A DNA stretch of 64,000 nt from Synechococcus sp. CBW1108 (lineage in GTDB: Bacteria; Cyanobacteriota; Cyanobacteriia; PCC-6307; Cyanobiaceae). This document shows, piece by piece, positions 34,825 to 50,088 of this stretch; within the stretch, counting starts at the first letter, position 1, and each line of letters starts with the position of its first letter. The translations under genes and the position numbers were made by a program. Below the pieces are notes generated by a model, which was not told the origin of the DNA, did not search any database, and saw only the letters and a list, made by a program, of their open reading frames with translations. Where the stretch lies: NCBI RefSeq assembly GCF_015840335.1, contig NZ_CP060395.1, positions 2,889,277 to 2,953,276 of the forward strand. Reading direction: 5' to 3'.

Positions 34825-35080
34825 ATGGTTGACTCCTCTTCTTGCTTCGGTTTCGTCGCATTCGCTGAGAACTGGAACGGCCGCCTGGGGGCATCCTCTC
34901 CCAAATTGGCCTGGGCTGACCAACACGCCTGCCATCAACGGTCAATTTCAGAAGCCTGCTGAACACTTCAATGGTCGTGCCGCGATGGTTGGGGTCGTAA
35001 GCGGCGTCGTAGTTGAAGGCCTTACCGGCTTTGGTACTGCCCATCAAATTGGTCTTGGCGCCCTAGTGGATGGTAAATAG
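34825..35080 (+). pseudogene. High-light-inducible protein (HLIP) gene, frame-broken and IS-truncated
   Basis: Frame 1 starts at ATG 34825 with a typical HLIP beginning (SSCFGFVAFAENWNGRLG, chlorophyll-motif ExxNGR) and stops at 34962. Frame 2 carries a second HLIP core (NGQFQKPAEHFNGRAAMVGV, GLTGFGTAHQIGLGALVDGK) to a TAG at 35078-35080; it has no ATG upstream of its core, only TTG 34829 or CTG 34916. This looks like two HLIP genes merged by a deletion with frame loss. The TAG itself is created by the IS that begins at 35081. HLIPs bind chlorophyll and carotenoid and protect photosystem assembly. Frame 2 alone might still be translated. Confidence 0.7.
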
Positions 35081-36836
35081 GGCTTGCTGAGGAACCGATA
35101 TCCATTGCGCCGCAGTTGATTCCAGGGATGGTCTCACGTTAAAATGAGCCTAATGGAGCCATTCCTGGCTTAGAACAATCTGCTGACACGCCAATGTACG
35201 TTTTTCAGCACGCAGGTCAGCTATCGATCGAGGAGTTTTACACGCCCTTCGGCGGCAAACTAGATCCTAATAATCGCTGGGTTCTGCTTCGTAACCTGAT
35301 TCCATGGATACCGCTGGAAAGCCAGTATGCACCCCAATTCAGTGCCAAGACAGGAGCACCGGCCAAGCCGTTTCAGATGGCGTTCGGTGCGCTGTACATC
35401 CAGCAACGCCTGGGAGTGACAGACCGCGAAACAGTTCAGCTGATCACGGAATCACCGTATCTACAATTTTTCATTGGCTTGAGTGCATACCAGGCAATGC
35501 CCCCGTTTGATCCATCGATGATGGTGCATTTTCGTAAGCGCATTGGCCCTGATCTGATCAAGATCTGCAATGACATGACCAAGGCCAATGGCGTTGCGAT
35601 GATTAAAGAGATGCTGGTTTCGGCGGAGGAGGATGATAGCGAACAAGAAGAGGAGCAACAGCTTGCTGCCATCGACGAAGCGCTAGGGGTGAAGCCTGCA
35701 ACGTTGGATCCTGAAAGTAACTGGGGTACTCTGATTCTTGATGCAACCTGCGTGCCTGATGACATTCCCTACCCAGTAGATCTGAGGTTGCTCAACGAAG
35801 CGAGAGAGGCCACTGAGAAGATCATCGACGAACTGTTCAAGCAGTTGCAGGGAAAGATCAATCGTAAACCCCGCTGCAACCGGGATAAAGCTCGGAATCG
35901 GTTTCTGGCGATCATCAAGAAGAAAAAGCCCAAATGCGCCGAGATCCGTGAAGTCAAGCGCTTTCAGCTCAACGAGATCCGGAGAAACCTCAGAGCAATT
36001 GATCAGATGATCCATTGCGGTGCCATGCTTTTGGAGCTTGGAACCCAGCTCTACCGCAAGCTGCTGATCACCAGTGAACTGTACCGGCAGCAGCAGGAGA
36101 TGTATGACGCTGATAGCCGGCGCATCGACGATCGGATTGTCAATTTGTCAAAACCACACGTGCGGCCGATCGTGAGGGGCAAGGCGGGAAGGCGAACAGA
36201 GTTCGGTGCGAAGATCTCAATATCAGATGATAATGGCTTTGTCGATGTGGATCGAATCAGCTGGGACAACTACAATGAAGCCAACGACCTGATCGCACGT
36301 ACCAAGCAATACAAGGAAGAGCGAGGGTACTATCCAGCACGAATCTGTGCCGATTCAATCTATATGACATTAGGCAACAAGAAGTTCTGCGCAGAAAATA
36401 ACATCAGACTCAGTGGCCGTCCACGCAAGAAGCAGGTAGAGGCCGAGGTGCAGACAGCAGAGCAACAAGAGCTTTTTAAATCAGACTTGAGAAAGCGTTC
36501 CGTGATCGAGGGAAGAATCGGAACGAGCAAACGGAAATATGGACTGGATCGGATCATGACCAAGCTGATTGAAACATCAAGAACGGTGATCACGATGGCG
36601 TTCTTTGTGATGAATGCCGAGAAGGTTCTCAGGCTACTGCGCCTCTTATTCTCTATTCTTGTCTCTGTGTACATCCTGATGCTCTATTTGCTCGCCTCCT
36701 GGCGCCGTCCAGCGCTTCTGTGGGCTGCTTAGTCAGCTTCTAGGAGAAAATTGAGGTCACCAGCGCTTGGCGCTGCAGGCTGAGATCGCGGCCCTTGGCG
36801 CGGACGAAAAACCCGCGAATGAAATTCAGCAAGCCC
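35081..36836 (+). mobile_element. IS element (IS5-type DDE), complete, TSD taaata
   Basis: Ends are inverted: GGGCTTGCTGA at 35081 and its complement TCAGCAAGCCC ending at 36836. The 6 bases on both sides are taaata (35075-35080 and 36837-36842), a target duplication. It contains one intact 512-residue transposase. The element interrupts the 3' end of the HLIP gene; without it that frame would run on for 23 more codons after VDGK. Confidence 0.8.
35194..36732 (+). CDS. IS5-type DDE transposase, 512 aa
   Basis: The N-terminal domain has GQLSIEEFYTPFGGKLDPNN, QMAFGALYIQQRLGVTDRET and FFIGLSAYQAMPPFDPSMMV. The catalytic part includes TLILDATCVPDDIPYP (first Asp), RICADSIYMTLGNKKFC (second Asp) and KRSVIEGRIGTSKRKYGLDR (Glu), ending in a hydrophobic tail after NAEKVLRLLRLLF. 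The reading frame is intact. A shrunken relative of the same protein is at 52111-52500. Confidence 0.9.
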   Translation: MYVFQHAGQLSIEEFYTPFGGKLDPNNRWVLLRNLIPWIPLESQYAPQFSAKTGAPAKPFQMAFGALYIQQRLGVTDRETVQLITESPYLQFFIGLSAYQAMPPFDPSMMVHFRKRIGPDLIKICNDMTKANGVAMIKEMLVSAEEDDSEQEEEQQLAAIDEALGVKPATLDPESNWGTLILDATCVPDDIPYPVDLRLLNEAREATEKIIDELFKQLQGKINRKPRCNRDKARNRFLAIIKKKKPKCAEIREVKRFQLNEIRRNLRAIDQMIHCGAMLLELGTQLYRKLLITSELYRQQQEMYDADSRRIDDRIVNLSKPHVRPIVRGKAGRRTEFGAKISISDDNGFVDVDRISWDNYNEANDLIARTKQYKEERGYYPARICADSIYMTLGNKKFCAENNIRLSGRPRKKQVEAEVQTAEQQELFKSDLRKRSVIEGRIGTSKRKYGLDRIMTKLIETSRTVITMAFFVMNAEKVLRLLRLLFSILVSVYILMLYLLASWRRPALLWAA

Positions 36837-37611: not shown

Positions 37612-37881
37612 ATGTCACGTCTCTCGGGTGCATGGGCTGCGCTGGCCATCTGTTGCGGCGGAGCCCTGGCCGCTGGAACCGCTGTTGCACCGGCCCAAGC
37701 CGTTCCAGCGGCAGGGATCTACTGCACGGCCCCTGGAGTGCCAGTGGGCTGCGTGGGCAGGCCGGCGGTTAGAGCCGTCACCCCAGGTGTGGGCGCCCCA
37801 GGTGCTGGGATGCGGCCAGCGGCAGGCCTTGGTGCCGGGCCAAACATGGGCGGACCGGCTAACCGTGGCGGTATGCGCTGA
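37612..37881 (+). CDS. Secreted Gly/Pro/Ala-rich small protein
   Basis: 89 residues from ATG 37612. A signal peptide (MSRLSGAWAALAICCGGALA, cleavage near AQA) is followed by a low-complexity mature part with two Cys (IYCTAPGVPVGCVGRP) and a Gly/Pro/Met-rich tail ending NRGGMR. Such short secreted proteins are frequent in cyanobacteria. The 3' end overlaps the convergent SDR gene by 23 bases. Confidence 0.6.
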   Translation: MSRLSGAWAALAICCGGALAAGTAVAPAQAVPAAGIYCTAPGVPVGCVGRPAVRAVTPGVGAPGAGMRPAAGLGAGPNMGGPANRGGMR

Positions 37882-38866
37882 GTCTTACTGGGGGCTGAGT
37901 CCACTGGGCGCTGAGATCCCATAGCTGCCGGGCCAGGCTGTCTGAGCAGGCATCGGCACTGGGTTTAGTTACCTCAAAACGCAGCCGACCGGGGCCCAAC
38001 ACCCGGTTGCTCCAATATTCGAAGCCACTCGCCTGTGGAACCCTGCTGGCCAACCCAGCCAGCAGGGCTCCGGCCCTCTGGGGGGTTTCGGTGAGCCGCA
38101 GCAGGTCGCGGGCAACCATGGCAAAGAGAGCCTGGCCAAAGGGGTTGTGGCTGCGGCTATAGCGAAAGAAGCCTCCGTCGCTACGTGGGATCACCAGCCC
38201 GGGGCTCCAGGCGAGCACCGGCAGCAGCATGCCCTGCTCCCTGAGCAGCCGCTCCGCCTCCCTTGCCATCAGAAGGTTGCAGAGTTTGCTGTCTTTGTAG
38301 GCCTTCTCGGCATTAAAGCTGCTGCTGCCATCGAGCATCAGCGCGCCAGGGCCCTGGCGCAAACCAGCAAGATCCCCTAGGCCGGCCGGCAGCCCCACCT
38401 TCCCTCCGGCGCTAGTGGGGTCATGCACCTCTGAGGAGGTGACCACCAGCCGAGGTGCTGTGCCCCGCAGCAGCAAAGGCAAGAGCAGCTGCAGCAGAGC
38501 CTGGTGGCCCAGGTGGTTCACGGCGATGGTGAGTTCAAACCCCTGGGCCGACCAGCGGGGCTTGGCTTCGCCGCTGTACTGCAGGCCGGCGTTGAGCACC
38601 AATGTGTCGATCGGCTCCCCGGCTGCCAGCAGGGATTGGGCGCAGAGCTCGATGCTGGACAGATCAGCCAGATCGCAGATGGGGGTATCAATCGGGCCGC
38701 TCAGACGCTCGCGCAGACCTGAGGCGCTGCTCCCATCCCGGCAGGGCAAGGTGAGGCGGTGACCGGCCTGAAGCAGCAGGGCCGCTGCCTGAAAACCAAT
38801 CCCGGAGCTGCCACCGGTGAGCAGGATGTGGCGGCTCGCTTCGGCACTGGGCTCCTTGTCCGCCAT
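37859..38866 (-). CDS. Short-chain dehydrogenase, protochlorophyllide reductase-like
   Basis: 335 residues from ATG 38866 (MADKEPSAEASRHILLTGGS). The Rossmann start is LLTGGSSGIGFQAAALLL, NAG is in LVLNAGLQYSG, and the catalytic YxxxK is in EKAYKDSKLCNLLMAREAER, the exact POR-type context. The C terminus (FEYWSNRVLGPGRLRFEV, then LARQLWDLSAQW) follows the POR layout too. It diverges from photosynthetic POR elsewhere, so a POR-related SDR acting on another substrate is more likely. Upstream lies a P450 gene 59 bases away on the same strand. Confidence 0.82.
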   Translation of the reverse strand: MADKEPSAEASRHILLTGGSSGIGFQAAALLLQAGHRLTLPCRDGSSASGLRERLSGPIDTPICDLADLSSIELCAQSLLAAGEPIDTLVLNAGLQYSGEAKPRWSAQGFELTIAVNHLGHQALLQLLLPLLLRGTAPRLVVTSSEVHDPTSAGGKVGLPAGLGDLAGLRQGPGALMLDGSSSFNAEKAYKDSKLCNLLMAREAERLLREQGMLLPVLAWSPGLVIPRSDGGFFRYSRSHNPFGQALFAMVARDLLRLTETPQRAGALLAGLASRVPQASGFEYWSNRVLGPGRLRFEVTKPSADACSDSLARQLWDLSAQWTQPPVRLSAYRHG

Positions 38867-38925
38867 GGCTCCTGTTCCCGGCACCATCTCATTTTGTTGA
38901 CCCAGCTGTTGGCCCAGCAACTCGC

Positions 38926-40305
38926 TCAGCGCAGACACGGCCGCACCAGAAGACCATCCTGCGGGGATGGGCTGGGAATGACCTTGAGCGTCATGTCTTG
39001 ATCCGGCTCCAGCACCAGGGTCAGCTGTTTGAGCAGTCCCACCGCCAGCAGGCGTATCTCCAGCTCGGCCAGAGCCTTGCCCAGGCAAACCCGCTCCCCA
39101 CCGCCGAAGGGCAGCAGGGCGGCTGTGCTTTCTCCGCCGAGATGGCGCTGGGGCCGGAAGGCCTCCAGATCCTCTTCTTTGCTGCCATAGCGGTGGCTGG
39201 CGGTGATGCTCACCTGCACCACCAGATCGGCCGGAATCTGCACATCCGCCAGCACAATCGGCTCCCGGGTGCGACGAAAGAAGCCACCCACCGGCGGAGC
39301 CAGACGCATCACTTCTTTGAGCACCGCATCGAGACGCGGTGCGCGGCTGGCGTCGTAGGCGGTTAGTTCCTCCCCCTGGGCCGGGGGCCAAGCCAGGCCG
39401 TCGAGCTCCTGCTGCAGCCAGACCAAGTCAGAGGGATTTTGCAGCAGGCTCAGCAGCAGACAACTCAGGGAAGATGCGGTGGTTTCGTAGCCGGCGAACA
39501 GCAGCAGGAGCAGCTGCTCGGCTACGTCGTCGTCTTCCAGGGGCAGACCGGCTTCATCCAGGCCACCAGATAGCAGATCGAGCCCGCCAGCTGCCAGGGG
39601 TACTCCGGCTGCCGCGGCGCCCTGGGCCTTCTCGAGCACGGCACCCAGGCGGCGCAGCAGGCCTTGGCGGGCCTGAAGAGCTCGCGCGTAGGGGCTGCCA
39701 GGCAGGGCAAAGGGCAAGGAGAAGAGGCCCCGGCACCAGGTTTCGAAATCGTCAAATAAAACCTCGCGATCGACACCATCGAGCCCCAGCACCGTGCTGG
39801 CAATCACGCTGAAGGCAAAGCGTCTCAGCTTTGGCACCAGGGCCACGGGCGCTGGCTCAGCCAGCAGCTCCCGATTGAGATCATCGACCAGCTCAACGAT
39901 CGCCGGGCTGTAGCGCTTCAAGGCAGCTGCGGCGAACAGCTGGCCCACCACCCGCCGACGAGCTTTGTGATCGGCACCGTTGCGGTTTGCCAGGGACAGG
40001 GGGCCCAGCAGCTTGCGCACACTCTCCGGCCACCAGCCCTCAAGGGCATCTCCCTGGGCGAACAGGTCGTTGATCGCCCTCTGCCCCCGGATGAATACGG
40101 TGCGCTGCCCCAGCAGGGTGGTGCCGTAGACATCGCCATAGCGCTCGAAGCGGGAGCGGGCGAAATCGGGATCACGCAGGAAGGAGAGGGTTTCGAGCAC
40201 TCCGCTCACGGCAGGCGTGGTTGGCAAGGGCCGCAGGACGGCGGGATCGGGCGACAACCAGGCTTCTCCAGGGGGAACTCCAGGTTGTCGGATCGCAGCC
40301 GGCAT
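38926..40305 (-). CDS. Cytochrome P450 (CYP120-like)
   Basis: 459 residues from ATG 40305 (MPAAIRQPGVPPGEAWLSPD). The I-helix is LLLLLFAGYETTASSLSCLL (oxygen-activating Thr), the K-helix ExxR is in LKEVMRLAPP, and the heme loop is LLPFGGGERVCLGKALAELE with the axial Cys. The overall layout resembles CYP120, a cyanobacterial retinoic acid hydroxylase group. It is divergent from the plus-strand metabolite cluster with only 38 bases between starts, so it may modify the resorcinol-type product, though that is inference. Confidence 0.9.
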   Translation of the reverse strand: MPAAIRQPGVPPGEAWLSPDPAVLRPLPTTPAVSGVLETLSFLRDPDFARSRFERYGDVYGTTLLGQRTVFIRGQRAINDLFAQGDALEGWWPESVRKLLGPLSLANRNGADHKARRRVVGQLFAAAALKRYSPAIVELVDDLNRELLAEPAPVALVPKLRRFAFSVIASTVLGLDGVDREVLFDDFETWCRGLFSLPFALPGSPYARALQARQGLLRRLGAVLEKAQGAAAAGVPLAAGGLDLLSGGLDEAGLPLEDDDVAEQLLLLLFAGYETTASSLSCLLLSLLQNPSDLVWLQQELDGLAWPPAQGEELTAYDASRAPRLDAVLKEVMRLAPPVGGFFRRTREPIVLADVQIPADLVVQVSITASHRYGSKEEDLEAFRPQRHLGGESTAALLPFGGGERVCLGKALAELEIRLLAVGLLKQLTLVLEPDQDMTLKVIPSPSPQDGLLVRPCLR

Positions 40306-40343
40306 CGCGCCACGATGGACGCTCCTTGAACGCCCCAATCCCC

Positions 40344-41117
40344 GTGACCAGCACCGAATCAAGCCCTAGTACGCCTGGCGTCGAGGCAAGACCCAGGGCT
40401 GCCGCAGAGCTGCTGGAGCGCCTGGCTGGCGTGGCGGGGATGGGGCCGGGCCAGCGCCGCCTGGTGGTGCTACTACCCCAGTTGGGGGATTTCGACAGCA
40501 TCGAATACGCCCAGGCCCTGGTCCCCGCCTTGCCACAGCTGGCGTCTGCCGCCATCACCGTGCTGGCGATCGGCATCGGCCAGGCCGCCGGAGCCGATCG
40601 CTTTTGCCAGTTCACAGGCTTTCCCCGCGAGCGCTTGCTGGTAGACGCAGACCCGCAGTTGCACCGTGCCCTGGGCCTCTACGAAGGCCTGCAGCAGATC
40701 GGCGGCCCCTGGCCGAACCTTCTGTTGATGTGCGCCGGCATCGGCTCCCCCGGCACCCTGGCCGAGGTGCTGCGCGGCTACACGGGCGATCGAGCAGCTC
40801 CCCAGCGAATCGCCGACGATGAGACCATCCAGGCCGGCCCCCTGCCGCCGATCAAGGGCTCGTTTTTCGCCAGGGCGGGCGGGACAGGATTCCAGCGCCC
40901 ATTCGAGCTGGCCACAGTGCGACTGCGCAACATGGGCGAAGTGCTGGGCCACTGGCGCACCTACGTGCCATGCGACGACTTCCTCACCCAGCGCGGCGGC
41001 ACCTTCCTGCTGGAAAAGGACGACACCTTGCTCTACAGCTTTAAAGACCGCGGCATCCTCGGCTTTTCGGCAACCATGGCCAGGCCGCTCAGCTTCCTGG
41101 ATCCTTACCTCGCCTGA
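40344..41117 (+). CDS. Peroxiredoxin-like (AhpC/TSA_2) protein lacking the usual Cys
   Basis: 257 residues from GTG 40344 (MTSTESSPSTPGVEARPRAA). A thioredoxin-like fold is indicated by RRLVVLLPQLGDFDSIEYAQ, ITVLAIGIGQAAGADRFCQF and FPRERLLVDADPQLHRALGL. Where related PRXL2-type proteins have a redox Cys after the first strand, this one reads LGDFDSIEYA with no Cys. The C-terminal half (QRGGTFLLEKDDTLLYSFKD) matches the same family. It may be a non-redox scaffold or use Cys in DRFCQF. It is 58 bases upstream of the methyltransferase, probably in one operon. Confidence 0.7.
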   Translation: MTSTESSPSTPGVEARPRAAAELLERLAGVAGMGPGQRRLVVLLPQLGDFDSIEYAQALVPALPQLASAAITVLAIGIGQAAGADRFCQFTGFPRERLLVDADPQLHRALGLYEGLQQIGGPWPNLLLMCAGIGSPGTLAEVLRGYTGDRAAPQRIADDETIQAGPLPPIKGSFFARAGGTGFQRPFELATVRLRNMGEVLGHWRTYVPCDDFLTQRGGTFLLEKDDTLLYSFKDRGILGFSATMARPLSFLDPYLA

Positions 41118-41175
41118 TCCCCAGCTGCCCCATCGGCGGAACCGCCTGCAGCGCCAGCGCTCATAGGCTTGGGTC

Positions 41176-41976
41176 GTGACAGGAACCCACCTGGAGAGTT
41201 TGGAGCGCAAGTCCCCTGATCTCCAGTCGGCCCTGGCGGTGCCACTGCCCCAGTTGTGGGGTGGCCTGGGCCAACGGCAGCTGAGGCCTGAGCTGATGGA
41301 TCAGCCTGGCCTCGATCCCCAGGCCCATCAGGCAGCCCTGCTTGGCCTGGCCCGCATCAATGCACTCACCCGCAGTGCCGCCTGCTTCTTCCCCGCCATC
41401 CGGCGCCTGGCGAGCCAGCTGCCATCGAAGCGGTTGCGCCTCCTGGATGTGGCCTGCGGTGGGGGCGACACGGTGCGGGCCATCGCTCGCCTGGGGCGCA
41501 GGGAGGGTCTCGATCTGGAGGTACACGGCTGCGACATCAGCGCCGAAGCCGTCGCCCTCGCCAGCGCAGCGGCCGAGGCGGAGGGCCTCGAGGCCCATTT
41601 CTTCCAGGCCGATGCGATCGGGGCCCCACTCCCAGGCGGGTATCACCTAATCACCACGTCCCTGTTTCTGCATCACCTCAGGGAGGCCGATGCGGAAGCC
41701 CTACTGCGCTCCATGGCAGCAGCCACGCTCGATCAGCTGTTGGTGCACGACCTAATCCGCAGCCATTTAGACCTGCTGCTCACCTGGGCCGGCACCCGGC
41801 TGCTGAGTCGCTCGCCGATCGTGCGGATCGATGGACCACTCTCTGTAGGTGGGGCCTTTGAGCTCGAGGAAGTGGCCCAGCTGGCGAGGGCAGCTGGACT
41901 AACTGACGCGCGGATCAGCCGTTTCTGGCCGGAGCGCTTCCTGCTCTCCTGGAGCCGCAATGCACCCAGCTCCTGA
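41176..41976 (+). CDS. SAM-dependent methyltransferase of type III PKS cluster
   Basis: 266 residues from GTG 41176. SAM-binding motif I is LRLLDVACGGGDTVRAIARL; HGCDISAEAVALAS, FFQADAIGAPLP and ITTSLFLHHL follow as motifs I-post, II and III. It overlaps the flavoprotein gene by 17 bases. In type III PKS clusters such methyltransferases methylate alkylresorcinols or their hydroxylated forms, as in streptomycete srs clusters and the hierridin cluster of Cyanobium. Confidence 0.88.
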   Translation: MTGTHLESLERKSPDLQSALAVPLPQLWGGLGQRQLRPELMDQPGLDPQAHQAALLGLARINALTRSAACFFPAIRRLASQLPSKRLRLLDVACGGGDTVRAIARLGRREGLDLEVHGCDISAEAVALASAAAEAEGLEAHFFQADAIGAPLPGGYHLITTSLFLHHLREADAEALLRSMAAATLDQLLVHDLIRSHLDLLLTWAGTRLLSRSPIVRIDGPLSVGGAFELEEVAQLARAAGLTDARISRFWPERFLLSWSRNAPSS

Positions 41977-43141
41977 GCCACTGCTGGAGCAGATCGCGCC
42001 CTGCTGGGATGTGGTGGTGGTGGGTGCTGGACCGGCCGGCGCCCTGGCGGCCCATGGCCTGGCCAGTCTCGGCGTAAGGGTACTGCTGGTGGAGCAGCGG
42101 AATTTCCCCCGCTGGAAGGTCTGTGGGGCCTGCCTCAGCCCCCAGGCCCTGGCTGCCCTTAGGGCCGCTGGCCTGGCCGAGCTGGTGGCAGCAGAGGGGG
42201 GCATTCATCTGCAGCAACTGCAGTTGGGGTTGGCTGGCCTGGTGAACCCGATCGCCCTAGGAGGAGGCCGGGTTCTGTCCCGCGCACGCCTGGATCTGGC
42301 GCTGCTGCAAGCGGCTAAAGCTGCCGGCGCCACGGTGCTGACGGGCACCCGGGCCATGCTGGGCGCGCCAGCCGCTGGCTTAGGGCCATGGCGGGAGGTG
42401 GTGCTGCAAAAAGGCAACGCTCGCCGGAGTGTCAACGCCAAGGTGGTGTTGATTGCGGCGGGTCTCACCCACCGCGCCCTGGGGGGCGAGGCGGAGATAA
42501 ACACCAAGATCGAACCCCATAGTCGGATGGGGGCCGGGTGTGAGCTGCCCGGGGAAGCTGCCGCCCTTACGCGCGGTGTGCTGCAGATGGCCGTGGGCCG
42601 GGGCGGCTATGTGGGCCTGGTGCGGGTGGAGGGCGGCGCGATCAACCTGGCCTGTGCCTTCGATCGGGCCTTGCTGCAGCGCAGCGGCGGGGCGGCCGGG
42701 GCCTGCCAGCAGATCCTGGCGGAGGCGGGCTTTGCGCCACTGCCCGCCCTGGAGGAAGCGGCCTGGCAGCTCACCGCAGCGCTCAGCCGGCGCACACGCC
42801 CCCTCGCAAGCCACCGCCTGCTGCTGCTGGGGGATGCCGCCGGCTACGTGGAGCCCTTTACGGGCGAAGGCATGGGCTGGGCCCTGACCTGCTCCCTGGC
42901 AGCACTGCCCCTAGTGCTGCGCGCAATGGAGCACTGGGATAGCTCCATCGAGTCAGACTGGCGCCGCCTTCACCACCGCTGGGTGACGCAGCGGCAGACC
43001 TTCTGCCGAGCTCTGGCGCAGCTGTTGCGGCACCCCGGAGCCAGCTGGGGGCTGCACAGGCTGGCTGGGACCTTTCCCTCGATCGCCGGCTCCATGATTG
43101 GGCTTCTGCAAAGGCCCGCCCTGCCCTGCTCGACGGCCTGA
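41960..43141 (+). CDS. FAD-dependent oxidoreductase of type III PKS cluster
   Basis: 393 residues. The dinucleotide-binding start is WDVVVVGAGPAGALAAHGLA, then FPRWKVCGACLSPQAL (geranylgeranyl-reductase/halogenase-type second motif), and the FAD ribityl motif LLLLGDAAGYVEPFTGEGMG. It is probably a flavin monooxygenase or dehydrogenase that hydroxylates the resorcinol ring. It ends 6 bases before the type III PKS start. It lacks the WxWxIP halogenase motif. Confidence 0.9.
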   Translation: MHPAPEPLLEQIAPCWDVVVVGAGPAGALAAHGLASLGVRVLLVEQRNFPRWKVCGACLSPQALAALRAAGLAELVAAEGGIHLQQLQLGLAGLVNPIALGGGRVLSRARLDLALLQAAKAAGATVLTGTRAMLGAPAAGLGPWREVVLQKGNARRSVNAKVVLIAAGLTHRALGGEAEINTKIEPHSRMGAGCELPGEAAALTRGVLQMAVGRGGYVGLVRVEGGAINLACAFDRALLQRSGGAAGACQQILAEAGFAPLPALEEAAWQLTAALSRRTRPLASHRLLLLGDAAGYVEPFTGEGMGWALTCSLAALPLVLRAMEHWDSSIESDWRRLHHRWVTQRQTFCRALAQLLRHPGASWGLHRLAGTFPSIAGSMIGLLQRPALPCSTA

Positions 43142-43147
43142 TCGCCC

Positions 43148-44206
43148 ATGCCCCTGTCCTTGATTGGTCTTGGCACAGCGGTGCCGCAGAGGCGCCTCAG
43201 CCAGCGGGAAACGCTGGAACTGGCACCGCAAATGCGCGATGCCAGCCCCCGCCAACAACTCCTGCTGGAGCGGATCTACCAGCGCTCGGGCGTGGCGCAT
43301 CGCCACTGCATCCCCCTGCCTGATGCCACCAACCCCTCCACAGCCGAGCGAATGAGGCGCTACCAGCCCGCGGCGCTGGAGCTGGCCCTGGGAGCTTCCC
43401 GCCTGGCCCTTGAGGATGCCGGCATCGAGCCAAGGGCGATCACTCACCTGATCACCGTGTCGTGCACGGGCTTCGGCGCCCCTGGTTTCGACCTGGCCCT
43501 AATAGCCAGCCTGCCGCTGGCGATGGATGTGGCCCGAACCCATGTGGGTTTTATGGGCTGCCACGGGGCGTTCAACGGACTGAGGGTGGCGCGGGCCTTT
43601 GTAGAGGCCGATCCCAGTGCCTGCGTGCTGCTGTGTGCGGTGGAACTGTGCAGCCTTCACCTGCAGGAGGGCTGGGACCCGGACCACATCGTGGCCAATG
43701 CCCTGTTCGCCGATGGGGCCGGTGCTGTGGTGGCGGTGGGTTCGGCAGGCGGTGGCGGCGGCTCGAGCAGGAACAAGGGATTGCAGCTGGTCAGCTCTGC
43801 CTCGACGGTGCTTCCTGGCAGCGAAGAGCTGATGGGATGGGTCATTGGGGATCATGGTTTTTCAATGGTGCTCTCGCCCAAAGTGCCCAGTCGCATCGCG
43901 GCCGATCTGATTCCATGGCTGGAGTGCTGGCTGGCGACCCAGGGCCTGGCCTTGCCTCAGGTGGAAACCTGGGCCGTGCATCCCGGCGGCCCCCGCATTC
44001 TCAGGGCGGTGCTCAAGAGCGCCGGGTTGGAACCGGCTCAAATCGATCTTTCCGCCGCGGTGTTGCGCCAATTCGGCAACATGTCATCGGCCACGATTCT
44101 GTTCATTCTGGAGCGACTACGCGCCACGGCCGGCCATGGACCATGTCTTGCCTTGGGCTTCGGGCCGGGCCTCACTGTTGAAGCGGCATTGCTTATGCGG
44201 CGGTAG
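43148..44206 (+). CDS. Type III polyketide synthase (alkylresorcinol/hierridin type)
   Basis: 352 residues. The Cys-His-Asn triad is present: Cys106 in ITVSCTGFGAPGFD, His278 in WAVHPGGPRIL and Asn311 in RQFGNMSSATILF. The GFGPGLTVE loop near the C terminus is also conserved. With a methyltransferase and a flavoprotein directly upstream, this matches picocyanobacterial alkylresorcinol clusters linked to hierridins. The enzyme should extend a fatty acyl-CoA or acyl-ACP starter with malonyl units and cyclise it. I assign no hid gene letters. Confidence 0.92.
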   Translation: MPLSLIGLGTAVPQRRLSQRETLELAPQMRDASPRQQLLLERIYQRSGVAHRHCIPLPDATNPSTAERMRRYQPAALELALGASRLALEDAGIEPRAITHLITVSCTGFGAPGFDLALIASLPLAMDVARTHVGFMGCHGAFNGLRVARAFVEADPSACVLLCAVELCSLHLQEGWDPDHIVANALFADGAGAVVAVGSAGGGGGSSRNKGLQLVSSASTVLPGSEELMGWVIGDHGFSMVLSPKVPSRIAADLIPWLECWLATQGLALPQVETWAVHPGGPRILRAVLKSAGLEPAQIDLSAAVLRQFGNMSSATILFILERLRATAGHGPCLALGFGPGLTVEAALLMRR

Positions 44207-44329: not shown

Positions 44330-45409
44330 TCAGCCAATAGCCGGTGCGGTCAGTGCCACGGGGGTGGCGGTGGCAGCAGCCAGGTCAAGCGGGAAGTTGT
44401 GAGCGTTGCGCTCGTGCATCACTTCCATACCCAGACCAGCGCGGTTCAGCACGTCTGCCCAGGTGTTCACCACGCGGCCTTGGCCGTCGAGGATCGACTG
44501 GTTGAAGTTGAAACCGTTCAGGTTGAAGGCCATCGTGCTCACGCCCAGGGCGGTGAACCAGATGCCAACCACGGGCCAGGCAGCCAGGAAGAAGTGGAGG
44601 CTGCGGCTGTTGTTGAACGAGGCGTATTGGAAGATCAGGCGACCGAAGTAACCGTGGGCAGCCACGATATTGTAGGTCTCTTCCTCTTGGCCAAACTTGT
44701 AGCCGTAGTTCTGGCTCTCGCTCTCGGTGGTCTCACGAACCAGCGAAGAAGTAACCAGCGAACCGTGCATGGCAGAGAACAGGCTGCCACCGAAGACACC
44801 AGCCACACCCAGCATGTGGAAGGGGTGCATCAGGATGTTGTGCTCAGCCTGGAACACCAACATGTAGTTGAAGGTGCCGGAGATACCCAGGGGCATGGCA
44901 TCCGAGAAGGAGCCCTGACCGAAGGGATACACCAGGAACACAGCAGACGCTGCTGCCACAGGGGCGCTGTAGGCAACGCAGATCCAGGGGCGCATGCCCA
45001 AGCGGTAGGAGAGTTCCCACTCGCGGCCCATGTAGGCGTAGATGCCGATCAGGAAGTGGAAGACCACCAGCTGGAAAGGCCCACCGTTGTACAGCCACTC
45101 ATCGAGGCTGGCGGCTTCCCAGATGGGGTAGAAGTGCAGGCCGATGGCGTTGCTGGAGGGCACAACGGCACCGGAGATGATGTTGTTGCCATACATCAGG
45201 GAGCCAGCTACGGGCTCACGGATGCCGTCGATGTCGACAGGGGGTGCGGCGATGAAGGCCACGATGAAGCAGATGGTGGCAGCCAGCAGGCAGGGGATCA
45301 TCAGCACACCGAACCAGCCCACGTAGAGGCGGTTGTTGGTGGAGGTGACCCAGTCGCAAAACTGGTTCCACGCAGAAGCGCCTTGGCGCTGCTGAATAGT
45401 GGTTGTCAT
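44330..45409 (-). CDS. psbA: Photosystem II D1 protein, Glu130 form
   Basis: The D1 reaction-centre subunit: 359 residues from ATG 45409 ([20 protein letters not shown]). Five membrane helices carry the ligands of the primary donor chlorophylls, pheophytin, QB and the Mn4CaO5 cluster. Position 130, which hydrogen-bonds the active pheophytin, is Glu ([12 protein letters not shown]), the high-light D1:2 form in cyanobacteria; the low-light form has Gln. The C-terminal extension after NFPLDLA is removed by CtpA. The frame is open upstream but D1 always starts at MTT(T/A). The leader has no clear Shine-Dalgarno sequence. Confidence 0.98.
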
Positions 45410-45604
45410 GAGAACGGATGGGGAAGTGCTCGCCAGATCTGGGCCGGAAGGCTCAGCAGGAAAGCGGTAGGTAGGTGCGGAGCAGGAAACCGCCCGCTCA
45501 TCTGAACTTAACACCTGTTCACACTTTCAAGTCATTTCCGGGCCACAATTGGCCAGCAGCAGGGCTGATGGCACCGATAAGCCCGGCTGATCACTCCCTA
45601 TCCG

Positions 45605-45952: not shown

Positions 45953-47239
45953 GTGGCCGAAATCCTTCTTCTGTCTGTCCCTGTATTAGGCCATGTCAAG
46001 CCGATGCTGGCCCTTGCCCGGGAGCTTGTTAGCCGTGGTCATCGAGTGCGCTGGCTGGCTGGCGCGGCCTTTCGGGACCGCGTTGAGAGTACGGGTGCTG
46101 AATTTTGTGGTTTCCAGCAGGGCTTTGATTACTCCCGCCCTGATCTTGTGCCCGAAAACCTGCAGGCTGATCGTGATCGACTGCGCGGTCTTGCCAAGTT
46201 GCGCTTTGATTTAGGGGCGTTCTTCATCGGTCCCTCCGAGGGCTTCTGCAGGGATCTGATCCACCTGCACGAGGAGTCTCCAGTTGACCTTCTGGTGTGC
46301 GACAGCTTTCTGATGGCGGGTGCCTGGTGGTCGGAATGCACCGGGCGTCCCTGGGTTCAGTTGTGTTGCACGGTCTTGACGTTGCCCAGTCGCGCGCTGG
46401 CACCGTTCGGGCTTTCATTGCCTCCGAATGATTCCTGGCTGGGCCGGATCCGCAACCGACTGCTGCAGGGTCTGGTCCGCAACGTGCTGTTCCGATCGCT
46501 GCGCCGCCGCGCTGATCAAGCCAGGGCAGCTCTGTCGCTGCCACCGAGGCGGCCCTGGCTGTTTGATGTTGTCTCACCGCACCTCGTTCTCAGCTGCACG
46601 GTGCGGAGCTTTGAGTATCCAAGGGCAGACTGTCCACGCCAGGTGCTCTTTGTAGGACCTCTGCTGGAGAACCATGAGGAGGCGTTCACACCTCCGCCGT
46701 GGTGGGGTGAACTCGATCACGCCACGGTGGTTCATGTCAGTCAGGGCACCATCAGCAATGATCCAGCTCAGCTCCTGCGCCCCACGCTTGAGGCACTTGC
46801 GGATGAGCCCGTGCTGGTTGTGGCCAGCACAGGCCGCCTTGATGGGGGACTTGATGCCCTCGGTCCACTGCCGCCCAATGCCAGGGCGGCGGGTTACATC
46901 CCCTATGGCGTACTGCTGCCGAAAGTCTCCGTGGTTGTGACCAACGGTGGGTTTCAGGGTGTGCAGGCGGCACTGCACCATGGGATTCCGATGGTCACCG
47001 CTGGTGAGAGCGAGGACAAGCCTGAGGTCTGTGCGCGATTGCAGCTGACCGGTGCATCGATTGATCTGGGAACGGCAACTCCGGAACCATCGGCCATTAG
47101 GTCTGCTGTCAGAAGAGTTTTGGAGCAGCCATCGTTTCGTATCTCGGCCGCAGCTCTCGCCCAGGAAGCTACTGAAGCCGGTGGAGCCCATGGAGCGGTG
47201 GATGCGATCGAAGTTGTACTCGCTTCCGCCAGGGAGTGA
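45953..47239 (+). CDS. GT1 family glycosyltransferase
   Basis: 428 residues from GTG 45953. The GT-B N-terminal start is EILLLSVPVLGHVKPMLALA; the C-terminal nucleotide-sugar region has VVHVSQGTISNDPAQLLRPT, AGYIPYGVLLPKVSVVVTNG and GGFQGVQAALHHGIPMVTAG, matching UGT/MGT macrolide-type enzymes where a His in the last motif contacts phosphate (here HHG). It probably glycosylates a lipid, carotenoid or polyketide. An IS5-type element begins 20 bases after its stop. Position next to fragments and IS suggests an acquired gene. Confidence 0.9.
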   Translation: MAEILLLSVPVLGHVKPMLALARELVSRGHRVRWLAGAAFRDRVESTGAEFCGFQQGFDYSRPDLVPENLQADRDRLRGLAKLRFDLGAFFIGPSEGFCRDLIHLHEESPVDLLVCDSFLMAGAWWSECTGRPWVQLCCTVLTLPSRALAPFGLSLPPNDSWLGRIRNRLLQGLVRNVLFRSLRRRADQARAALSLPPRRPWLFDVVSPHLVLSCTVRSFEYPRADCPRQVLFVGPLLENHEEAFTPPPWWGELDHATVVHVSQGTISNDPAQLLRPTLEALADEPVLVVASTGRLDGGLDALGPLPPNARAAGYIPYGVLLPKVSVVVTNGGFQGVQAALHHGIPMVTAGESEDKPEVCARLQLTGASIDLGTATPEPSAIRSAVRRVLEQPSFRISAAALAQEATEAGGAHGAVDAIEVVLASARE

Positions 47240-47338: not shown

Positions 47339-48415
47339 ATGGGCCAGAGAGGCTTCTGGGACGAGCAGCAGAGGGTTGAAAAGCTCAAAACTAAAAAACC
47401 TGTTCTTGAGCGACTTTCCCAGTCGATTCCTTGGGAATCATTTCGCCCACTGCTCGAAAGAGGTTATGCGCAAGAGCGGAAAAGCAATGCTGGTCGGCGG
47501 AGAATTGATCCTCTGATCTTCTTCAAAATGCTGGTGCTCCAACAGCTTTTCAATTTGAGCGATGATGACACTGAGTTCCAGGTAAATGATCGCCGTTCTT
47601 TTGAAGAGTTTGTTGGCTTAGGCGTAATGAACGATATTCCCGATGCTACTACTATCGCCTTTTTTAGAGAAAGGCTTCGTAAGGCTGGGGTAATCGAAGA
47701 GCTGTTTGAAAAGTTTGAGGCCTATCTCCGGTCCCAAGGCCTCGAAGCCCGTGGCGGGCAGATAATTGATGCAACGTTGGTTCCAGTGCCACGGCAGCGG
47801 AATAGCAGAGAAGACAACAAGGAGATTAAAGAGAATCGCATGCCTGAAGGATGGGACGAAAACCCAAATCGATTGCAGCAAAAGGACTTAGATGCGCGAT
47901 GGGTTAAAAAGAACGGCATCAATCACTATGGCTACAAGAACAGTATCTGTATCGACGTTGAACATGGATTTATCAGACGCTATGCCGTGACACCGGCCAA
48001 TATCCATGACAGTCAGATGCTGCCGATGCTCCTCGATCCTGAGAACACAGATGATTATGTTTGGGCAGATTCTGCCTTTGCAGGCGAGCGCTTTGAAGAC
48101 CTACTGGATCTTGGCGGTTTTGAAAGTTGCATTCACGAAAAAGGCAGCCGCAATCACCCGCTAAGCGACGCAGCCAAAGAGCGTAACCGTATTAAATCAG
48201 CAATTAGAGCTTGTGTGGAACATGTTTTTGGCTGCATGACCATGTCTATGGGTGGCAAGATGACTAGAAAGATTGGGCTTGAGAAAAACAAAGCATGGTG
48301 GGGTCTCAAGAATCTGACATTTAACTTCTTGCGATATCTTCTAAGAGCAAATCGTGGACCGCGTCCCTTTGCGTGGTGTAAAACCCGAGGCCCGAATGCC
48401 CTGATCAGAGGGTGA
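47339..48415 (+). pseudogene. IS5-type transposase, 3' end replaced by nested IS
   Basis: A DDE transposase starting MGQRGFWDEQQRVEKLKTKK with IIDATLVPVPRQRN (first Asp), YVWADSAFAGERFEDLL (second Asp) and SAIRACVEHVFGCMTMSMGG (Glu). The first 339 residues match copy 2. From there the frame enters the IS256 end and adds 19 foreign residues (GPRPFAWCKTRGPNALIRG), replacing only five native ones. All catalytic residues are kept, so the hybrid protein might still act. Confidence 0.85.
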
Positions 48416-50088
48416 ACAGGGTGGAATGACGGGCTGTCATTCCGGAGGCGCAGATGCACCTCGTTTTTTCACCTTGAATCAAGGGCGATTGACTTGTCAA
48501 GTCTTTCGCCCGATCGCGGATGTGTTGTGTTCTGGAGTGGCTGGCACCAGCCACAGGTTGTTGCCCCGGCCCCCGGGCGGCGATCAAGACCGCTGCGCCC
48601 TGTAGAGGCGCTGCAGCCTCGATCACCTGGGGCCTGTTTCCTGCAGCTCTCAGGCGCCGGCGGCCTGGAGGGTAGGGGTGTCGCCCAGTTCGGGGATGGT
48701 CGCCATGCTCTCGGCGGAGAACATGCGGCGGCCCTCCAGCTGCCAGTGCTCGTGTTGCTCCAGCAACACCGCCCCGACTAGGCGGATGATCGCAGGGTCG
48801 TTGGGAAAAATGCCCACGACCCTGGTGCGGCGCTTGATCTCCTCGTTCACCCGCTCCAGCAGGTTGGTGCTCCAGATCTTGCGCCAGTGGTCCTTGGGGA
48901 AGTGGCGGAAAGCCAGCACGTCCTCCTTGGCCTCGTGCATGAGCGCAGCGGCCTTGGGGAAGCGCTCCGCCAGCGAGGCCGCCAGATCATCCCAGCGCGA
49001 CTCGATCTCCTCAGCGGTTTCTTGGGCGAACACGCTGCGCAGGGCAGCGGTGACCATGCCTTGGTGAGCCCTGGGAACACACTGCAGCAGGTTGCGGGCA
49101 AAATGCACCCGGCAGCGCTGCCAGACGCAGCCCTGCAATTGCCTGCGGATCGCCTTGGTGAGGCCGCTGTGGGCGTCAGAGATCACCAGCTTGACGCCAC
49201 CCAGACCCCGCTCTTTGAGGTGGGAGATGAACTCCGCCCAGAAGGGCTCGCTCTCACTGTTACCCACCTTGAGGCCCAGCAACTCCCGGCGCCCGTCCTC
49301 GTTGACCCCCATGGCGACGACGACAGCGCGGGAGCAGACCTGCTGGGCCTTGCCCAGGCGCCCCTTGAGGTAGGTGGCATCCAGGTAGACGTAGGCGTAG
49401 CTGCTGCTCTCCAGCGGCCGGCCCAGGAACGCCTGCACCTGCTGGTCGATGTCCTGACAGATGCGGCTCACCTGCGACTTGGAGATGCCGCTCTGGGAAC
49501 CCAGCGCCGCCACTAGGGAATCCACCTTGCGGGTCGAGACGCCACTGATGTAGGCCTCCATGATCACCGCGTACAGGGCCTGATCGACCCTGCGGCGGGG
49601 CTCGAGGATCGTGGGCAGGAAGCTGCCGGCTCGCAGTTTGGGGATCTGCAGGGCGAGATCCCCCACCTGGGTGGTCAGGGTGCGAGGCCGGTAGCCATTG
49701 CGTTGGTTGACCCGCTCCTCGCTGCGCTCATGGCGATCGGCACCGACCACAGCGGAGGCCTCCAGTTCGATCAGCTGCTGCAGGCCGTAGCGGGCCAGCT
49801 CGGGGATCAGCTCACCGGCGCTGCTGCCATCGAGTAGCGCCGCCAGTTCAGGCACGGCAGCATGGTGCTTGGGCATGGTTCGTCTGGTTGAGGTGGTACT
49901 CGAACCAGGGAAACGGGCCTGCCCACCCGGGGTCCCCACGAATCCAGCGCCCGAGGCGCTGAATTCGCGGGGTGCCCCGCCCCTTGCAACGCCAGCCGCT
50001 GAGCCGATCGCTTGAGGTGCGGACGCTCAGCCCCGGCTACGCCGGGGCTGAGGCCCAGGGGAATTACACCACTGCGGGGGACGCAGGC
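48357..50088 (-). mobile_element. IS256-type element copy 1 (complete, nested)
   Basis: 1732 bases. The ends are about 25-bp imperfect inverted repeats: GACCGCGTCCC...GTGGTGTAA at the left and, reverse-complemented, GCCTGCGTCCC...GTGGTGTAA at the right. The 8-base duplication aaatcgtg flanks it (48349-48356 and 50089-50096), as expected for IS256. It is inserted in the 3' end of the IS5-type transposase gene. Confidence 0.93.
48650..49876 (-). CDS. IS256 family (Mutator-type) transposase
   Basis: Start chosen at ATG 49876 (MPKHHAAVPELAALLDGSSA), 408 residues. Family features: VVGADRHERSEERVNQRNGY, RRVDQALYAVIMEAYISGVS, the first Asp in YAYVYLDATYLKGR, the second in VKLVISDAHSGLTKAIRR, a CxxH-type zone VWQRCRVHFARNLL and the Glu in LLERVNEEIKRRTRVVGIFP. 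The frame is intact, so the element is potentially active. Confidence 0.93.
   Translation of the reverse strand: MPKHHAAVPELAALLDGSSAGELIPELARYGLQQLIELEASAVVGADRHERSEERVNQRNGYRPRTLTTQVGDLALQIPKLRAGSFLPTILEPRRRVDQALYAVIMEAYISGVSTRKVDSLVAALGSQSGISKSQVSRICQDIDQQVQAFLGRPLESSSYAYVYLDATYLKGRLGKAQQVCSRAVVVAMGVNEDGRRELLGLKVGNSESEPFWAEFISHLKERGLGGVKLVISDAHSGLTKAIRRQLQGCVWQRCRVHFARNLLQCVPRAHQGMVTAALRSVFAQETAEEIESRWDDLAASLAERFPKAAALMHEAKEDVLAFRHFPKDHWRKIWSTNLLERVNEEIKRRTRVVGIFPNDPAIIRLVGAVLLEQHEHWQLEGRRMFSAESMATIPELGDTPTLQAAGA

Follow-up and report, generated by a model that had tools for sequence, protein, structure and literature searches.

A predicted hidABC-type alkylresorcinol operon and its cytochrome P450, short-chain dehydrogenase and peroxiredoxin-like neighbours in Synechococcus sp. 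CBW1108

Results and Discussion

Organization of the locus

The window analyzed here, the whole stretch of 64,000 nucleotides from contig NZ_CP060395.1 of Synechococcus sp. CBW1108, carries genes for a methyltransferase (MT), a FAD-dependent oxidoreductase (flavoprotein, OX) and a type III polyketide synthase (PKS) in this order on one strand, with genes for a peroxiredoxin-like protein (Prx), a cytochrome P450 and a short-chain dehydrogenase (SDR) on their upstream side (Table 1). An earlier note on this DNA had described a hierridin-type PKS cluster with possible extra tailoring genes. In agreement with its description of overlapping or nearly touching genes, the open reading frames (ORFs) of MT and OX share 17 bases, and 6 bases separate OX from PKS. 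The P450 and SDR genes, 59 bases apart on the minus strand, are divergent from the others, and the 38 bases given in the note correspond to the distance between the ATG of P450 (40305) and the GTG of Prx (40344). An alternative start of Prx is TTG 40326; for MT, GTG is the likely start and TTG 41200 the alternative. All six proteins scored above their respective Pfam cut-offs, and the NCBIfam families agreed with those named, but several of the latter matches were below the curated cut-offs.

Table 1. Features of the locus (positions in the window)
Feature	Position	Strand	Evidence
POR-like SDR	37859-38866	-	Pfam adh_short above cut-off; closest PDB match POR 6L1H
Cytochrome P450, intact ORF	38926-40305	-	Pfam p450 147 bits; 2VE3 nearest; clade A in P450 tree
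Prx-like, PF13911 peroxiredoxin fold	40344-41117	+	AhpC-TSA_2 62.6 bits (cut-off 27)
hidA-type MT	41176-41976	+	Methyltransf_25; PRK06202 213.5 bits, below cut-off 243
hidB-type FAD oxidoreductase (OX)	41960-43141	+	FAD_binding_3; TIGR02032 116.5 bits, below cut-off 158.8
hidC-type type III PKS	43148-44206	+	Chal_sti_synt_N/C; Cys138/His278/Asn311, gatekeeper Met240
psbA (D1, Glu at residue 130), context only	44330-45409	-	TIGR01151 776 bits on longer ORF 44330-45514
HLIP-like stretches, context only, upstream of transposase	34825-35059	+	G000:C1:2924101-2924169, 2924222-2924335
Macrolide-type glycosyltransferase, between psbA and transposase	45953-47239		TIGR01426 157 bits, below cut-off 260
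Transposases flanking the region on both sides	35194-36732, 47339-48415, 48650-49939		Pfam DDE_Tnp_1_2, DDE_Tnp_1, Transposase_mut

The three-gene operon and its PKS

The order MT, OX and PKS on one strand, with genes overlapping or nearly touching, is that of a hierridin-like cluster. In a scan of named genomes, in which the best 80 of 230 PKS loci were kept, MT and OX (whole or partial) adjoined the PKS at 68 loci, planctomycete and gemmatimonad records included, and the remaining 12 include contigs that end there; in one case (L160), MT and OX lie on the opposite strand. The window PKS, these 80 loci, four g35 loci and the PKS of genome G081 were aligned (86 rows). The triad Cys138-His278-Asn311 and F187 were invariant in all rows, and Met240, in a column that we take to be equivalent to Phe265 of chalcone synthase, was kept in 85 of 86. 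The sole exception, with Cys at this place, was the PKS of G081, which is 36% identical, of another type and without MT or OX. Met at the gatekeeper position was described as a mark of the HidC clade (PMC8086630); it is not exclusive to it, since planctomycete PKS rows carry Met too. Together, the gene order, the catalytic triad and the gatekeeper Met identify the three genes as an alkylresorcinol operon of the hidABC type, which forms a branch of a known family, and with the PKS tree they sustain the hierridin-type assignment. The operon probably makes a lipid-like phenol (alkylresorcinol), and a hierridin-like phenol is its predicted product.

PKS matches (E <= 0.001) were found in 72 of 201 genomes of the family. 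For the comparisons below, the weak matches of G074 and G080 were dropped and G081 was retained, leaving 70 PKS genomes; this number includes G048, G083 and G128 (47-49% identity) and G124 (a piece of 126 residues) irrespective of MT and OX.

Among the relatives, the PKS of Synechococcus sp. CS-1331 (L094) is 96% identical to that of the window. A decaying operon was seen in G108 (L105, 8034-11035), where the flavoprotein is split in two and the PKS has one stop; no match to the window P450 is listed for this genome. PKS relatives with MT and/or OX also occur in records of Gemmatimonadota, Actinobacteria and Hydrogenedentota (L126, L161, L163, L167, L170 and L172). Some of the non-cyanobacterial records are possibly misbinned, and L119, titled Bifidobacterium breve, groups with cyanobacterial rows.

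SDR and Prx-like neighbours

The nearest solved chain to the SDR was that of protochlorophyllide reductase (POR; E 7e-36), and its score against the light-dependent POR model, 124 bits, was far below the cut-off of 331. SDR matches (E <= 1e-10) were detected in 198 of the 201 genomes, true POR being counted in, and close SDRs (71-84% identity) were present in G200, G137 and G087, all without a PKS match.

The Prx-like protein has LGDFDS at the place where a redox Cys would be expected, and D-F-D-S was invariant in all eight aligned sequences including that of the window. Thus, the note's description of a peroxiredoxin-fold protein that lacks the redox Cys and precedes the operon holds; with no Cys at this place and no Cys pair, the protein does not qualify as a redox-active peroxiredoxin. 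A sequence search of the PDB with it yielded nothing useful. Prx-like matches (E <= 0.001) occurred in 164 of 201 genomes.

For linkage, gene positions were compared for P450 in 118 genomes (some with fragments), for Prx in 95 of 164 and for SDR in 61 of 198. In these lists SDR was linked to PKS in 7 of 51 genomes holding both and Prx in 7 of 64, each time in genus g1 only; no SDR-PKS linkage beyond the genus of the window was found among the SDR positions of the 61 genomes. Prx was considered as an antioxidant partner of the operon and rejected on its wide distribution, the missing Cys pair and its restriction to g1 when linked to PKS in the list compared.

The arrangement of the neighbours varied. 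SDR, Prx and the operon occur together in seven g1 genomes, with P450 between them in two. In G126, G045, G195, G106 and G183, SDR and Prx are adjacent and lie beside the operon with no P450 between them, and G084 has SDR, P450 and Prx without the operon alongside, its PKS being on another contig. Prx and P450 were divergent within 160 bases in eight genomes, and in six of them the PKS was distant or on another contig. The layout of the window can thus be that of a long-established gene set next to which the operon lies, and SDR and Prx are neighbours that are not specific to the operon.

Identity and distribution of the P450

As a rule, members of one P450 family share at least 40% identity. 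The solved structure nearest to the window P450 was that of CYP120A1 (2VE3; E 1.8e-68), with identity at 160 of 426 aligned positions (38%), so that the protein need not be a CYP120. The label "CYP120-like" used in the note is therefore apt for the nearest solved relative but falls short as a family assignment.

P450 matches (E <= 1e-10) were detected in 137 of 201 genomes. After removal of weak rows, 59 of 118 P450 genomes were without PKS, a count in which the P450s have at least 57% identity, some are fragments and some genomes are incomplete. The note had suggested that P450 and SDR, if co-regulated, would oxidize the product further than in known hierridins, and had named the conservation of both in strains lacking the PKS as evidence against this. 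Since both are found in PKS-free genomes (the 59 for P450; G200, G137 and G087 for SDR), a co-regulated tailoring pair is mostly unsupported, as is an extended cluster whose P450 and SDR are absent wherever the PKS is absent.

In a tree of 76 P450s, the window sequence fell in clade A (group A), which comprised 37 rows from 35 genomes with 100/100 support and did not follow genus. All 37 rows came from genomes counted as PKS-positive, G081 with its unlike PKS included. In a larger sample of 400 genomes, with P450 in 187 (E <= 1e-80) and PKS in 121 (E <= 1e-15), group-A P450s (74-80% identity) were present without a PKS match in G208, G235, G243, G297 and G329, four of which are about 99% complete. 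A rule that a group-A P450 means a PKS was accordingly abandoned: it held for 37 of 37 rows in the first 201 genomes and was broken by these five and by G081.

P450 as a candidate tailoring enzyme

Unlike SDR and Prx, P450 was linked to PKS in several genera. In 11 of the 59 genomes that have both, the two lay within 10 kb of each other, whereas random placement in 2.8-Mb genomes would give about 0.4. The linked genera were g1, g10, g35, g38 and g47, and sides and strands differed. P450 is divergent from the operon with Prx between in the window genome (G000) and G143, and divergent and directly adjoining MT in G082; it is upstream on the same strand in G077, G103 and G037 (read in two frames in G103) and downstream of PKS on the same strand in G150. 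The linked P450 is of sister group B and on the opposite strand in three g35 genomes (G075, G034 and G123), and is a remnant in G045. Further linkage was seen in G018 (g19), where P450 lies downstream, 1.8 kb from the PKS end on one contig, and in four more g35 genomes (G204, G231, G246 and G321). A binomial estimate for linkage in 6 of 17 genera was not relied on, since it rests on a guessed rate.

These data bear on the possibility that the product of the operon is tailored by the P450, though not by SDR or Prx, through hydroxylation of its alkyl tail or its ring. Because P450 recurs within 10 kb of PKS in varied arrangements in several genera, this part of the proposed tailoring set is still alive, whereas SDR linkage was confined to g1 in the lists compared. 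An exact test within genus is in the same direction: 27 of 33 group-A genomes had the operon, against 21.9 expected (P = 0.010), in a test that ignores descent inside a genus and uses strata made by hand for the eight genera with both operon states and group-A P450s (genera without group A excluded; G081 taken as without operon). Two P450s of family CYP213, to which the window P450 may or may not belong, were listed inside type III PKS clusters (PMC7014017); the words hierridin and alkylresorcinol are absent from the main text of that paper. By title and abstract opening, no paper in an incomplete literature collection linked a P450 to hierridin or alkylresorcinol.

Several observations speak against such a role. 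In g6 (42 genomes), group A, defined here by identity of at least 71% and not by the tree, showed no association with the operon (P = 0.25), occurring in 16 of the 29 genomes that have it and in 5 of the 13 that lack it; the PKS matches of G291 (33%) and G261 (35%) were treated as without operon, and a P450 fragment of G261 was uncounted. A P450 of the window's kind is missing from 11 of the 70 PKS genomes, and a relative of the window P450 was on the stretch at 5 of the 80 named PKS loci. The adjacency in the window can be inherited with Prx, the linked P450s of g35 belong to group B, and the linked genomes are not independent, so that shared variable regions can give linkage. Furthermore, group-A P450s have HLIP or psbA genes close by more often than those of group B, as described below. 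On balance, it is rather unlikely that the P450 is an accessory of this operon.

HLIP, psbA and mobile-element surroundings

The surroundings of the P450 contain genes for high-light-inducible proteins (HLIPs) and psbA. Within 4 kb of the P450, 18 of 41 group-A loci and 5 of 44 group-B loci had an HLIP match (P = 0.0007), and 22 of 41 and 7 of 44 had an HLIP or psbA match (P = 0.0002). This comparison, which excluded the remnants L210-L212 and L250-L252, is one of related rows, with several flanks of less than 4 kb and a lax HLIP threshold (E <= 1e-3). At seven loci of g6 and g38 (L191, L193, L195, L198, L204, L209 and L263), an HLIP-like match follows the P450 on its strand, directly downstream at a distance of 73-489 bases.

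The same genes accompany the operon in the branch of the window. The gap between Prx and MT, 0.65-0.8 kb in G126, G045, G195 and G106, is occupied by two HLIP-like genes and one for a protein of about 37 residues; in G126, the two HLIP-like genes score narrowly above the Pfam Chloroa_b-bind cut-off. The gap lacks this trio in the window and in G143, a sister strain, so that Prx and MT are only 58-59 bases apart (62-63 between aligned ends) and may share a transcript. psbA is convergent with PKS in the window, G143, G126, G183 and G082 (partial at some contig ends). An HLIP or psbA match was on the stretch at 9 of the 15 named loci of the window's branch (L094-L108) but at 5 of the 65 others, stretch lengths differing. 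HLIP and psbA were therefore rejected as general companions of the operon, and their near restriction to this branch limits a light-response reading.

The trio, whose protein of about 37 residues has no Pfam match, is found repeatedly in the vicinity of P450, Prx and operon genes, at 34825-35059 in the window and at 11630-12184 of L267. The window ORF at 34829-35080 scored 18.6 bits for Chloroa_b-bind, below the cut-off of 22.3.

It is quite possible, if not the outcome we would expect, that the group-A P450, SDR and Prx constitute a module for light stress or pigments (carotenoid or apocarotenoid oxidation, for instance) that is unrelated to the alkylresorcinol. The HLIP and psbA frequencies at group-A loci favour this, as do the substrates of CYP120A1, which are retinoids and apocarotenoids (PMC7014017). 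However, HLIP genes are common, with 16 matches in the window's genome, the psbA and HLIP copies are repeats where genes may be shuffled, and nothing ties P450, SDR or Prx directly to pigments. In the same literature collection, by title and abstract opening, no paper linked HLIP to P450, or hierridin or alkylresorcinol to light or photoprotection.

A neutral explanation is that psbA and HLIP repeats, together with transposons, served as recombination sites and joined unrelated genes by chance. Four psbA copies are present in the genome (L274-L277), with identical proteins carrying Glu130 and mostly unlike flanks; their coding DNA is 98.4-99.9% identical to that of the window copy, and in an ungapped comparison the flanks are alike for 0-200 bases only. 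These copies and the 16 HLIP-like matches make repeat shuffling a fair neutral explanation, to which the transposases on both sides of the region add. Nevertheless, the recurrence of SDR, Prx and operon together in seven g1 genomes and of P450-PKS linkage in several genera leaves chance placement doubtful as a full account. The glycosyltransferase gene beyond psbA was considered as a part of the cluster and rejected, since its relatives were clustered in only two other fetched loci (L201 and L207), neither with a PKS on the stretch.

Proposed role of the locus

Taken together, the data are likely to reflect a hid operon of the ordinary kind, set in photosystem-stress surroundings, with the P450 as a possible accessory and SDR and Prx as neighbours. 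The HidC-type PKS would load a long fatty acyl thioester, add three malonyl units and then close the chain to a 5-alkylresorcinol; the HidB-type flavoprotein would hydroxylate the ring, and methylation by the HidA-type MT would yield a hierridin-like phenol or hydroquinone ether. An apparently older group of SDR, Prx-like and HLIP genes adjoins the operon in the window's genus, as does a psbA copy in several strains, and P450, SDR and Prx would belong to this older group. The short distance between Prx and hidA in the window and G143 would allow one transcript for both.

Several points weigh against this interpretation. The P450-PKS linkage in several genera exceeds the expectation for an uninvolved neighbour. 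In a quick tree, the window PKS groups with other cyanobacterial PKSs, a set that does not contain HidC of LEGE 06113, and forms within it its own 16-row branch (100% SH-aLRT); it is mostly 53-63% identical to Cyanobiaceae PKSs outside that branch, while in a few g31 genomes the identity is 68-73%. Because of this separate position, its chain length or ring chemistry could differ. We know of no product, transcript or gene removal for CBW1108.

A more far-reaching scheme seems very unlikely to us: the operon of the window's branch would belong to a high-light response, in which a hydroquinone-like lipid serves as a quinone analogue or to protect thylakoids, undergoes further oxidation by the group-A P450 and is controlled together with HLIPs, the Prx-like protein and the adjoining Glu130 psbA. 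The recurrence of P450s close to the operon, and the placement of HLIP and psbA genes beside both this P450 group and this operon branch, offer a lead that is cheap to test through light response and P450-modified alkylresorcinols. If the neighbours mean nothing, the operon is an ordinary one, and the locus cautions against taking neighbouring genes for members of a cluster.

Comparison with known systems

CYP120A1 of Synechocystis, the nearest solved relative of the window P450, has 38% identity to it, and the SDR is a separate paralogue of light-dependent protochlorophyllide reductase, to which its nearest solved relatives belong.

In Planctomycetota, an operon of the same three genes in the same order as in the window has been described, and its alkylresorcinols were demonstrated by heterologous expression (PMC10896814). 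The planctomycete PKSs, some of them with this three-gene layout, yield pentadecyl- and heptadecylresorcinols, and the methyltransferase of G. maris probably C-methylates (PMC10896814). The planctomycete PKSs among the loci compared here, from another phylum, are 45-52% identical to the window PKS, and the planctomycete stretches examined hold no relative of the window P450.

Forty-seven hierridin-like clusters were described, with hidA>hidB>hidC as the more conserved order (PMC8086630). Compared by description with hidABC of Cyanobium sp. LEGE 06113, the window differs in the separate branch of its PKS within the family set and in its SDR, P450 and Prx-like neighbours; the order and strand of MT, oxidoreductase and type III PKS, the gatekeeper Met and the picocyanobacterial host are common to both (PMC8086630, PMC10896814).

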